From assembly GCA_947624875.1 (NCBI GenBank), contig CANQMA010000006.1, positions 1-60,560 on the forward strand: DNA of 60,560 nt. Direction: 5' to 3'. This DNA is from an uncultured Lachnospiraceae bacterium. GTDB taxonomy: Bacteria; Bacillota; Clostridia; Lachnospirales; Lachnospiraceae. Shown here one piece after another: positions 4,775 to 33,757 of the stretch (its first letter is position 1; the number at the start of each line of letters is the position of its first letter). The position numbers and the translations under genes were made by a program. Under the pieces are notes generated by a model. The model ran no database searches and was not told the origin of the DNA. It saw nothing but the letters and a program-made list of their open reading frames with translations.

Positions 4775-5080
4775 ATGTATTATACATATATATTGCGTTG
4801 TGTGGACAACACGCTTTATACGGGAATAACAACCGATGTAAAGCGGCGCTTGGGTGAGCATTGCGGTAAAAAGGAAAAAGGCGCGAAATATACCCGTATG
4901 CATACGGTCAAAAACCTTGAAGCAGTCTGGGAGAGCGCCGACAGGGCATCGGCCATGAAACTGGAATATCAGATTAAGAGGCTGTCAAAAGCGCAGAAAG
5001 AAACGCTGATTCAAAAAAATAATCTGGCCGATTGTTTTTCGGAGAAAATTTCCTGCGAGCAATATCAAAGAATTCAATAA
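4775..5080 (+). CDS. GIY-YIG nuclease family protein (UPF0213/YhbQ-like)
   Basis: The 101-aa protein carries a GIY-YIG fold near the N-terminus (YYTYIL then LYTGITTD), the conserved Arg in KRRLGEH, and a Glu in KLEYQIKRL. This matches the short stand-alone YhbQ/UPF0213 group, for which weak DNA nuclease activity has been reported but whose role is unclear. ATG 4775 has GGGAAAGG upstream. It is co-directional with the ABC operon, 38 bases behind the permease, but likely unrelated in function. Confidence 0.9.
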
Positions 5081-5161: not shown

Positions 5162-5353
5162 TTATTTTATGTTGATTTCCCCTGCAAAAGCCTGTACTTT
5201 TTCAATGTCAATCTGATATTTCTGCGCGGTCTGCTCCACAGACATTCCATTCTTCAAATCTTGAATAATAGCAATACTGTTTTCTATGCCAGCAGTATGT
5301 CCTTTCGCCTCGCCTGCTTGAAACTGTTCCTTCAGTGCCATTTCCAGTGTCAT
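5162..5353 (-). CDS. Putative intragenic small protein (C-terminal 63 aa of Rpn copy 1; RpnS-like antitoxin candidate)
   Basis: Within the rpn gene, codon M221 is preceded by GGAGG (complement of 5363-5367) with a 9-base spacer, as strong a ribosome binding site as that of the full-length gene. Translation here would give the 63 C-terminal residues in frame, starting MTLEMALKEQF. Established: E. coli rpn genes encode intragenic small proteins from their 3' ends that inhibit the toxic full-length nuclease. Inference: the same architecture exists here. The second rpn copy has the same internal site but a different tail. Confidence 0.45.
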   Translation of the reverse strand: MTLEMALKEQFQAGEAKGHTAGIENSIAIIQDLKNGMSVEQTAQKYQIDIEKVQAFAGEINIK

Positions 5354-6013
5354 ATACTCTCGCCTCCATTCCCTGCTTTCCTTAATCCGATCATATTCTT
5401 CCCTGATTGTAGCAGAAAATTCATCATCTGGAAATAGCCCGGCTACACATTTTAGAAAAGTTTTTAAATCTTCACTGACGTTTCCTTCCGTTCCCATGGT
5501 ATTTAAAATAATCATGGTCGTCTGGTCGCCATATTCCAGTCCGTCTATTTCCTTGCACTGGTAGGTAAACGTATACCGGTACTGATTCTTTCCATACAAG
5601 TCGTAAGTGCAGATAAAGATGATAAAACTGCGGCAGAGCATGCTGTAATCCTGACCCCGTTCCAGCAGGTCAAGATCGATCAAGTCCCTGTAATATCTTC
5701 CGCGTTTCGGGAGCTCCCCGCTTCTGGCATTCTGCATCTCAATGTTGTAGACTTCATCATCACCCCGGACATAGACATCCAGACGGATGCCCTTTGCGTC
5801 ATGGCGGATGCCGATTACCTTTTCATACTCAGGATATTCAATCTTTAAGATTTCTTTCCCAAGGATTTCCCCGAGAATCTTTTTACAGAGAGATTCATTT
5901 CTCATGAACTTCTGAAAGATAAAGTTGTCTGCAAGCGTCAGGTCTTCCCAGCGCTTCATCTGCGGCTGTTCACTGACATTCTTTTGTAATTGGTTCAGGT
6001 TGTACTTTTCCAT
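5162..6013 (-). CDS. Rpn-family PD-(D/E)XK nuclease / putative transposase-like protein, copy 1
   Basis: This 283-aa protein belongs to the Rpn (recombination-promoting nuclease, PDDEXK_2) family. The core motif is RLDVYV (D79), then IEMQ (E92, Q94), the D-x(12)-E-x-Q form typical of Rpn enzymes. The C-terminal third (from about 215) is helical and contains GEAKGH-type Gly/Glu/His repeats. Start: the upstream in-frame ATG at 6028 contains GGAGG that is ideally placed (8 bases) for ATG 6013, so 6013 is preferred. E. coli Rpn proteins promote RecA-independent recombination in vivo and act in phage defence. A second copy lies at 32629-33495: the first about 239 residues are identical or nearly so, but the C-terminal tails differ. 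No terminal inverted repeats or target duplications were seen, so it is not an obvious transposon. Confidence 0.85.
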   Translation of the reverse strand: MEKYNLNQLQKNVSEQPQMKRWEDLTLADNFIFQKFMRNESLCKKILGEILGKEILKIEYPEYEKVIGIRHDAKGIRLDVYVRGDDEVYNIEMQNARSGELPKRGRYYRDLIDLDLLERGQDYSMLCRSFIIFICTYDLYGKNQYRYTFTYQCKEIDGLEYGDQTTMIILNTMGTEGNVSEDLKTFLKCVAGLFPDDEFSATIREEYDRIKESREWRREYMTLEMALKEQFQAGEAKGHTAGIENSIAIIQDLKNGMSVEQTAQKYQIDIEKVQAFAGEINIK

Positions 6014-6174
6014 ACTTGTGTCCTCCATATCGTTTTTCTAAAAGGTTCTGACCGGTTTTAGATAACCGGCTAAAAAAGAAGGGGCTTCCGGCCTTCTTTA
6101 AGAACCATTATACGAAAAAGAAACGGAAAAACCATAGCGTCGTCCCCAATGATGTGATTTTCGTTCCGAACATG
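5304..6174 (-). repeat. Near-identical 871-bp rpn block, copy A (pairs with 32786-33656)
   Basis: By eye this block matches 32786-33656 with no indel and about four substitutions. It spans the 5' about 84% of the rpn gene plus about 160 bp upstream of the start, including the structured leader. Identity stops abruptly inside the C-terminal coding part on one side and at the tandem repeat on the other. Confidence 0.9.
6044..6106 (-). promoter_or_regulatory. Structured leader of rpn copy 1 (possible three-way junction / attenuator)
   Basis: Read on the minus strand, GGTTCT (6106-6101) can pair with AGAACC (6049-6044). The outer stem encloses a terminator-like hairpin (AAAGAAGG, 9-base loop, CCTTCTTT followed by TTT; 6099-6075) and a second hairpin (CCGGTT, ATCTAA loop, AACCGG; 6069-6052). 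A TATAAT (6112-6107, minus) abuts the outer stem with only a weak TGGTTT-like -35. The start site is therefore uncertain: with this -10, transcription would begin inside the structure. The same structure occurs at 33526-33588. Confidence 0.55.
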
Positions 6175-6180
6175 AAAAAA

Positions 6181-6381
6181 AGAGTCATGCTCCATTCGGT
6201 GTACACTGCGTATACACCTCATGTACGACATTCGTCGTATTAAAAAAAGAGTCATGCTTCATTCGGTGTACACTGCGTATACACCTCATGTACGACATTC
6301 GTCGTATTAAAAAAAGAGTCATGCTCCATTCGGTGTACACTGCGTATACACCTCATGTACGACATTCGTCGTATTAAAATA
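6181..6381. repeat. Three tandem 67-bp repeats, each with two hairpins
   Basis: Units start at 6181, 6248 and 6315 with exact 67-bp period; I see one mismatch (GCTCC versus GCTTC in unit 2). Each unit carries GGTGTA with TACACC (6-bp stem, 9-base loop) and TACGAC-ATTC-GTCGTA (perfect 6-bp stem, 4-base loop), and units are joined by poly-A. The third unit runs into the ychF terminator and loses its A-run. Spacerless, so not CRISPR. The array separates ychF from rpn copy 1 and is absent upstream of rpn copy 2. Confidence 0.9.
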
Positions 6382-32628: not shown

Positions 32629-32835
32629 CTAAATCAATTCGCTTAAGGCCTGTACCTTGTCCGGGTCAACCTGATATTTCTGAGCAATCCATTCCACAGA
32701 TTTTCCGTTTTTTAAGTCGCGGATGATAGCAATACTGTCTTCTATGCCCTCAGTATGTCCTTCGGCAAGTCCGGCCTCGTGTCCCTTCGCCTCGCCTGCT
32801 TGAAACTGTTCCTTCAGCGCCATTTCCAGTGTCAT
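32629..32835 (-). CDS. Putative intragenic small protein (C-terminal 68 aa of Rpn copy 2; RpnS-like antitoxin candidate)
   Basis: The in-frame ATG at 32835 has GGAGG (complement of 32845-32849) 9 bases upstream, identical to copy 1. The product would share its first 19 residues with the copy-1 small protein and then diverge. Divergent tails on identical toxins are what would be expected if the tail carried pair specificity (inference). Confidence 0.45.
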   Translation of the reverse strand: MTLEMALKEQFQAGEAKGHEAGLAEGHTEGIEDSIAIIRDLKNGKSVEWIAQKYQVDPDKVQALSELI

Positions 32836-33495
32836 ATACTCTCGCCTCCATTCCCTGCTTTCTTTTATCCGATCATATTCTTCCCTGATTGTAGCAGAAA
32901 ATTCATCATCTGGAAATAGCCCGGCTACACATTTTAGAAAAGTTTTTAAATCTTCACTGACGTTTCCTTCCGTTCCCATGGTATTTAAAATAATCATGGT
33001 CGTCTGGTCGCCATATTCCAGTCCGTCTATTTCCTTGCACTGGTAGGTAAACGTATACCGGTACTGATTCTTTCCATACAAGTCGTAAGTGCAGATAAAG
33101 ATGATAAAACTGCGGCAGAGCATGCTGTAATCCTGACCCCGTTCCAGCAGGTCAAGATCGATCAAGTCCCTGTAATATCTTCCGCGTTTCGGGAGCTCCC
33201 CGCTTCTGGCATTCTGCATCTCAATGTTGTAGACTTCATCATCACCCCGGACATAGACATCCAGACGGATGCCCTTTGCGTCATGGCGGATGCCGATTAC
33301 CTTTTCATACTCAGGATATTCAATCTTTAAGATTTCTTTCCCAAGGATTTCCCCGAGAATCTTTTTACAGAGAGATTCATTTCTCATGAACTTCTGAAAG
33401 ATAAAGTTGTCTGCAAGCGTCAGGTCTTCCCAGCGCTTCATCTGCGGCTGTTCACTGACATTCTTTTGTAATTGGTTCAGGTTGTACTTTTCCAT
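32629..33495 (-). CDS. Rpn-family PD-(D/E)XK nuclease, copy 2
   Basis: This 288-aa paralogue matches the gene at 5162-6013 through about residue 239, including D79, E92 and Q94. After GEAKGH the tails part: this copy has an extra EAGLAEGHTEGI repeat and ends DPDKVQALSELI. Both tails keep the same plan, an IAII(Q/R)DLKNG helix and a (Q/W)xAQKYQ helix. The start ATG 33495 uses the same GGAGG at 8 bases. It lies inside the secreted-protein region, between the SSB-like gene and the first GH128 gene, so this region appears to have been an insertion or expansion site. Role as for copy 1: DNA nuclease, possibly phage defence. Confidence 0.85.
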   Translation of the reverse strand: MEKYNLNQLQKNVSEQPQMKRWEDLTLADNFIFQKFMRNESLCKKILGEILGKEILKIEYPEYEKVIGIRHDAKGIRLDVYVRGDDEVYNIEMQNARSGELPKRGRYYRDLIDLDLLERGQDYSMLCRSFIIFICTYDLYGKNQYRYTFTYQCKEIDGLEYGDQTTMIILNTMGTEGNVSEDLKTFLKCVAGLFPDDEFSATIREEYDRIKESREWRREYMTLEMALKEQFQAGEAKGHEAGLAEGHTEGIEDSIAIIRDLKNGKSVEWIAQKYQVDPDKVQALSELI

Positions 33496-33656
33496 ACTTG
33501 TGTCCTCCATATCGTTTTTCTAAAAGGTTCTGACCGGTTTTAGATAACCGGCTAAAAAAGAAGGGGCTTCCGGCCTTCTTTAAGAACCATTATACGAAAA
33601 AGAAACGGAAAAACCATAGCGTCGTCCCCAATGATGTGATTTTCGTCCCGAACATG
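32786..33656 (-). repeat. Near-identical 871-bp rpn block, copy B
   Basis: Partner of 5304-6174 at a constant offset of 27482 bases, with about four substitutions seen by eye. On the leader side homology ends at CGAACATG; the tandem 67-bp array present at locus A is missing here. Confidence 0.9.
33526..33588 (-). promoter_or_regulatory. Structured leader of rpn copy 2
   Basis: Identical to the copy-1 leader: GGTTCT/AGAACC outer stem enclosing a terminator-like hairpin and a CCGGTT/AACCGG hairpin. Confidence 0.55.
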
Positions 33657-33757
33657 CTAAAAAGAGTAAAAAATACATAAATTTTATAATTCGATATTGC
33701 AAAAGCCTAAATTGGAATCACAGACTTTTTCAATGAACATTCTCTTTCATATTTTCA

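Follow-up and report, generated by a model that had tools for sequence, protein, structure and literature searches.

Does the rpn gene at positions 5162 to 6013 encode a second, smaller protein that starts within its own coding sequence, and is that start site kept by selection in clostridial relatives? We addressed these questions in the window, the whole stretch of 60,560 nucleotides from an uncultured Lachnospiraceae bacterium that was analyzed. The window contains two full-length rpn genes, both on the minus strand. Copy 1 (5162..6013) encodes a predicted RpnL-like nuclease of 283 residues. It starts at the ATG at 6013, with GGAGG 8 nt ahead of the start, and its stop codon ends at 5162. 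An alternative in-frame ATG further 5', at 6028, has no Shine-Dalgarno (SD) sequence. Copy 2 (32629..33495) encodes a predicted nuclease of 288 residues and also has its own GGAGG-N8-ATG. On their profile scores, both genes are members of the Rpn nuclease family (COG5464, TIGR01784, PF12784). Copies 1 and 2 scored 91.3 and 87.0 bits against TIGR01784 (curated cut-off 52.1) and 34.2 and 34.8 bits against PF12784 (cut-off 27.4). Residues D79, E92, and Q94 were invariant across the 11 proteins that we aligned (alignment A1). According to the accessible sections of PMC5350276, the catalytic residues needed in RpnA are D63, E82, and Q84, i.e., a D and an E-x-Q. D79, E92, and Q94 are the equivalent PD-(D/E)XK residues by this pattern, which was matched without a structural alignment.

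Codon 221 of copy 1 is an ATG (5353-5351) with GGAGG at 5363..5367 on the minus strand, and the spacer is 9 nt. This start would yield an RpnS-like small protein of 63 residues (5162..5353, minus strand), and the site is kept in homologues. M221 and T222 were invariant in all 11 aligned proteins. In copy 2, the ATG is also codon 221, with GGAGG at 32845..32849 (minus strand) again 9 nt ahead of it, and the predicted small protein has 68 residues (32629..32835, minus strand). Among the further in-frame ATG, GTG, and TTG codons listed for either copy, none except the gene's own start and codon 221 had GGAGG within 22 nt upstream. The earlier note had described this GGAGG-N9-ATG with its 63-residue product, and its coordinates, spacing, and length were all correct. 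It was also right to place the site in copy 2 at 32835, with 68 residues, but the two toxin parts are nearly one sequence. Their nucleotides are identical through most of the toxin part, and copy 2 is therefore not independent evidence for the internal site. The homology of the copies extends about 170 nt 5' of their starts (6014-6185 and 33496-33667), while the flanking genes differ. Therefore, the duplicated unit took in a 5' flank. The assembly is a draft, and because the copies lie in a single contig and are identical for more than 600 nt, they may partly reflect an assembly join. The shared flank holds a terminator-like hairpin ahead of the full-length start. This hairpin, at about 6075-6099 just 5' of rpn, was unremarkable (z of -0.98 for the whole stretch), and 35 of 200 shuffled sequences folded equally well.

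Matches to rpn were present in 15 of 23 genomes of the genus, 134 of 200 of the family, and 37 of 196 of the class, to which we added named contigs. We sampled some of the listed loci, chiefly those ranked highest. A search profile built from 27 sampled rpn genes matched 183 open reading frames (ORFs) of at least 200 residues, some of them the same gene from overlapping loci. Keeping ORFs whose 5' end was not open, whose profile match began near the N terminus, and for which a start codon was found gave 154 distinct genes. These were thinned to 127, which lowers the kinship among them but does not remove it. A strong site was defined as GGAGG or AGGAG 5 to 10 nt before an ATG that lies 35 to 120 codons from the stop. 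For the null expectation, synonymous codons were shuffled 200 times within each gene, so that the protein and the codon usage were kept.

We found a strong internal site in 84 of the 127 clostridial rpn genes, and the shuffles gave 23.8 ± 3.8, with a maximum of 35. With stricter thinning, the count was 56 of 89 (expected, 16.7 ± 3.4). When any SD of at least four nucleotides was accepted, 101 of 127 genes had a site, compared with 62.6 under the null. Each group showed the excess: 10 of 15 genes in the genus against 2.9 under the null, 58 of 78 elsewhere in the family against 16.1, 12 of 29 elsewhere in the class against 3.7, and 4 of 5 on the named contigs against 1.1. As a negative control, we took 297 longest ORFs, rather than annotated genes, from the same loci and the window, removed 180 Rpn-like ones, and thinned the rest to 105. 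Only one of these 105 unrelated ORFs had a strong site (expected, 2.9 ± 1.5). For comparison, 78 of the 127 genes have a strong SD at their own start, with starts chosen by a script that used the SD as a criterion, and thus internal sites are roughly equally frequent. Across clostridial Rpn genes, where the earlier note had proposed to follow the GGAGG-ATG by alignment, the site has not been lost in most. These counts indicate that the internal start is held beyond coding constraint in many clostridial rpn genes.

The spacing between SD and ATG showed its main excess at 8 nt (31 versus 9.1 expected) and 9 nt (58 versus 12.7), with lesser excesses at 6 nt (12 versus 4.7) and 12 nt (11 versus 2.3). 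There was also an excess at 21 nt (24 versus 6.4), which is likely due to a second methionine four codons on. Eighteen of the 127 representatives have not even a four-nucleotide SD with an ATG within 35 to 130 codons of the stop, and 21 have only a weak site. We considered a downstream rpnS as compensation for genes without an internal site and rejected it. Of the 118 representatives with enough 3' sequence, 14 had a C-terminal match downstream, three of them weak (E values of 0.006 to 0.008). Genes with no site had such a match in 3 of 16 cases, weak-site genes in 1 of 19, and strong-site genes in 10 of 83.

Could the small protein also have its own transcript? Upstream of the internal start of copy 1, we predict a promoter, TTTCCA-N17-TACAAT with TG before the -10 (extended -10, TGCTACAAT), at 5406..5434 on the minus strand. 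It was identified by a consensus scan together with conservation in the genus. The same elements, in the same block, were found by the scan in copy 2 (32888..32916, minus strand). The scan by itself performed no better than chance, with 4 hits versus 2.9 expected in the copy 1 region and 4 versus 3.5 in that of copy 2. For the conservation test, we removed copy 2 and the copy on contig C9, which are near duplicates, from the 16 genus genes. In 11 of the remaining 14, the extended -10 motif TGnTANNNT ends 52 nt before the internal ATG; 5,000 synonymous shuffles gave 1.55 ± 1.14, with a maximum of 6. The motif was missing at this position in the other three. In 4 of the 14 genes GGAGA replaces GGAGG, and all four retain the extended -10. 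In this genus, therefore, the small protein seems to have its own promoter, a predicted internal extended -10.

Among the 88 representatives with an internal site, 8 have TGnTANNNT at exactly 52 nt, and 7 of the 8 are from this genus. We rejected a promoter general to clostridial rpn genes: in the same 88, TATAAT with at most one mismatch reached only 11 versus 7.5 and 20 versus 17.0 expected. With no general -10 enrichment over these representatives, the predicted promoter belongs to this lineage in particular. The prediction fits the known picture, because internal transcription starts are present in all E. coli rpn genes, as cited by Zhong et al. 2023 (PMC10327210; this paper is cited throughout from its accessible sections). 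A further, lesser excess of TGnTANNNT was noted in the 88 at 75 to 99 nt before the internal ATG (7 genes versus 2.5). Six of these genes, from several genera, have the motif at exactly 95 nt, including two genus genes without the 52-nt element (L019 and L030).

C-terminal units with no toxin part in front of them occur on contig C42 of the genome from which the window comes and in the close relative G021. In G021, they lie immediately after an rpn gene on contig C23 and in tandem on contig C3. In all, we found 33 distinct closed ORFs of 40 to 150 residues that comprise the C-terminal part alone (231 loci), and 17 of them have a strong SD before the start codon. Upstream of the 33, there is another C-terminal end in 12 cases (in L223 and L224 also an adjoining toxin fragment), no Rpn piece within 600 nt in 8, and too little sequence in 8. 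Five of the 33 are the ends of broken rpn genes (L051, L065, L071, L128, and L227). The assemblies are drafts, and many of the C-terminal units sit at contig ends.

For 12 of the C-terminal ORFs, the alignment with the closest full gene spans a strong internal site of that gene. Nine of the 12 have a strong-SD start at the very residue of the internal site, and 11 of the 12 do so when any SD is accepted; 3 of the 11 are broken-gene ends (L051, L065, and L128). The same-residue starts support, but do not prove, use of the site, because part of this agreement simply came along when the DNA was copied. We also inspected ten units or ends of the genus individually. In six of them, TGnTANNNT lies 52 nt ahead of the ATG (L062, the second units of L052 and L053, L066, L069, and L071), and the L070 unit has TACAAT without the TG. 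The element is missing in L065, in L027, whose closest full gene, L019, also has none, and in L028, in which the homology ends before it. Leaving out the broken genes L065 and L071, the extended -10 is present in 5 of 8 genus units. Therefore, the separate C-terminal units partly keep the promoter-RBS-ATG block.

We also noted three other loci. On the minus strand of L216 (G280, contig C119, 1-1301), a nuclease-like gene whose 5' end lies outside the sampled sequence has GGAGG and ATG before MTELGKSLIEEG near its end. Two separate small ORFs then follow, starting with MTELGKSLIEEG and MTELGRSLIEEG, each with an SD, and their starts coincide with the internal one. In another family of the window's own genome (L213 on G000 contig C1 and L212 on G000 contig C45), genes close to contig ends finish in EARGREEGIQIGE-type repeats, and in one of the two GGAGG-N8-ATG lies ahead of the repeat part.

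The C-terminal part carries tetrapeptide repeats, and the arrays begin 14 residues past the internal methionine. This onset falls in the range of 8 to 20 residues reported for RpnS (PMC10327210). In copy 1, the repeat region is EAKGHTAGIE, residues 15 to 24 of the small protein (5282..5311, minus strand). The copy 2 small protein has 8 residues more in this region. We compared 14 units from two genomes, omitting the truncated second unit of G021 contig C3. The repeat regions all differ, and their lengths range from 10 to 42 residues in steps of four. One extra repeat in RpnC-S abolishes its counteraction of RpnC (PMC10327210). Because the repeat regions here differ and one added repeat inactivates RpnC-S, we predict that the units are mutually specific.

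In the toxin part, copies 1 and 2 agree at all 470 nt that we compared (100%), but their tails after the repeats are only 71% identical. The tail of copy 1 is 83% identical to that of G021 contig C62, whereas their toxin parts are only 75% identical. The tail of the unit on C42 of the window's own genome is 92% identical to that of G021 contig C34. The 75 nt ahead of the internal ATG are 90 to 100% identical in nine copies from two genomes, and toxin parts between the groups are 74 to 76% identical. Judged by these identities, the toxin parts and the C-terminal tails have different histories. We tentatively suggest that the separate units of this lineage are private antitoxin genes and spare cassettes, and that recombination at the promoter-RBS block swaps the C-terminal domain. 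Such a cassette, a possible but rather doubtful entity, would comprise a toxin-gene end that bears the internal promoter, followed by the RBS and a C-terminal domain whose number of repeats is particular to it. If exchange does occur, toxin specificity and the matching antitoxin would change in one step. The identities fit such an exchange, but gene conversion of the toxin parts would give a similar pattern, and conclusions are restricted by the draft state of the assembly.

What, then, do these genes do? We think it very probable that both rpn genes are intragenic toxin-antitoxin modules of the Rpn kind. This is the best explanation of the internal site, of selection for it over and above the encoded protein, of the conserved promoter-like element, of the varying repeats, and of the separate units that carry the site. 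In this scenario, the full-length protein would be a PD-(D/E)XK nuclease able to damage DNA; toxicity is assumed from the work in E. coli. The GGAGG-N9-ATG at codon 221 would allow the C-terminal 63 or 68 residues to be made separately. By analogy to E. coli RpnA, this small protein may bind the same domain within the full-length protein and render the nuclease inactive. In this genus, it is probably also made from its own transcript, driven by the extended -10 inside the toxin coding sequence, which could let the antitoxin exceed the toxin. The number of four-residue repeats past the internal start probably sets the recognition between toxin and antitoxin. Phage defense by these genes would follow by extension of the published E. 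coli work. The C-terminal profile had no convincing match in the PDB (best E value, 0.098), and 7TH0, which shows the three-helix fold of RpnS, was not among the six sequence matches listed in that search (E values up to 10). PADLOC gave no match, and a scan of viral_contigs for phage-borne relatives returned 13 pattern matches and no confirmed relative.

Three other explanations have to be weighed against an intragenic toxin-antitoxin module. The GGAGG-ATG could be a by-product of the conserved peptide W-R-R-E-Y-M, with no small protein made. W-R-x-E-Y-M is indeed a common motif at the position of the internal start, and the peptides alone predict the 23.8 sites per 127 genes of the null. The sites seen are 3.5 times that number, however, and the codon choice is telling: in the 51 representatives with the R-x-x-Y-M peptide or a near form, the arginine codon within GGAGG is AGG in 41, compared with 17% of all 2,103 arginine codons. 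A second group of rpn genes builds a correctly spaced SD from another peptide (AAG-GAG-GAA-TTT-GAT-ATG type), and thus the SD does not depend on WRREYM. A conserved peptide therefore fails to account for the site. In the genus, a synonymous signal is present at the -10 element as well, and we regard a pure by-product as highly improbable. The small protein might instead be made without being an inhibitor, as a subunit or activator of the nuclease or as a DNA-binding regulator, which we consider very unlikely. The E. coli RpnS proteins tested for inhibition block their own RpnL (PMC10327210), and the repeat placement and site geometry here match E. coli RpnS. For such roles speak the known systems in which internal starts yield structural subunits, such as CRISPR Cas11d, and a predicted relation of RpnS to HTH motifs, both mentioned in PMC10327210.

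The weightiest alternative concerns the promoter, although we still hold it to be unlikely. The -10-like element may reflect another constraint on RNA or DNA, e.g., a recombination site, and the antitoxin may be translated from the full-length message alone. At codons -22 to -19, which hold the element, synonymous identity in the genus genes was 0.94, 1.00, 0.98, and 0.92 (48, 67, 46, and 13 same-residue pairs). This is the sole run of four adjacent codons at 0.92 to 1.00, and many codons around it have values of 0.2 to 0.8. Isolated codons off the element are conserved as strongly (offsets -15, with 1.00, and -3, +3, +7, and +10), and gene conversion could yield the high identity of the 75 nt before the ATG relative to the toxin parts. 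Yet the residue following S-A varies (T, K, R, or I) while TGnTANNNT stays constant, and E. coli rpn genes do have an internal transcription start (PMC10327210).

The intragenic toxin-antitoxin reading had been put forward in the earlier note, and it holds as the best one, with a site kept beyond coding constraint; the same note's suggestion that the arrangement would newly reach the Clostridia has been overtaken. This extension is already in print, since Zhong et al. 2023 introduced an rpn gene of Clostridioides difficile into E. coli and found that it made RpnS, which was abolished by mutating the predicted RBS and internal start (PMC10327210). Like the window genes, that gene is from the Gram-positive Clostridia and has an internal RBS and start; use of its site was shown by mutation, in the heterologous host E. 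coli. RpnS genes that stand alone, and whole rpn genes arrayed in tandem, have also been described (PMC10327210). Our search of titles and abstracts, with most subscription papers outside its reach, found RpnS treated in PMC10327210 alone, and in the accessible sections of that paper we saw neither an internal promoter in Clostridia nor separate rpnS units in tandem. The extended -10 that is conserved in the genus at 52 nt before the internal ATG is new here. In addition, our comparison shows selection on the DNA for the internal antitoxin start in many clostridial genes, beyond the single tested one.

The RpnL/RpnS pairs of E. coli (RpnA to RpnE) and RpnP2 share several features with the window genes: a PD-(D/E)XK nuclease with an internal RBS and start, repeats soon after the internal methionine, several copies per genome, separate RpnS genes that are in some cases downstream, and an internal transcription start, which is predicted here (PMC10327210). 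Unlike these pairs, the window genes are of the TIGR01784 type and are known from sequence alone; the predicted internal promoter is legible from base conservation in this genus; and some units hold a toxin-gene end with the -10 element and RBS, or lie in tandem. The E. coli genes ypaA (RpnE-S) and the downstream rpnC-S are also separate antitoxin-domain genes 3' of rpn (PMC10327210). The units here differ from them in being partly tandem and in that the conserved homology takes in the predicted promoter.

The polymorphic toxin systems CDI, Rhs, and MafB combine a constant toxin part with exchangeable C-terminal modules and have spare orphan cassettes nearby. The clostridial genes would be alike if the exchange reading is right, although we do not claim homology, and the module exchanged here would be an oligomerization and antitoxin domain, not a toxic domain. 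Our analysis offers predictions at the level of single bases for the internal RBS, the internal extended -10 promoter, and the repeat register. The putative toxin-antitoxin pairs, which vary naturally within single genomes, could be used to study repeat-number specificity and module exchange.

We also considered a defense island around the window genes and rejected it, as none of the 10 neighboring proteins scanned is a known defense protein. They comprise two ABC transporter parts, a GIY-YIG protein, a YchF-type GTPase, Lgt, an SSB-domain protein, three fibronectin-type or hydrolase proteins, and one dehydrogenase. The small GIY-YIG domain gene (4775-5080, 101 residues) adjoins rpn copy 1 on the opposite strand. 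Just 5' of copy 1, and 3' of the YchF-type GTPase gene, is a tandem array with a 67-bp unit (6175-6379; 3.1 copies, 98% matches). The unit contains the near-palindrome GTGTACACTGCGTATACACC, a 20-mer that occurs three times in the window, each time within this array.
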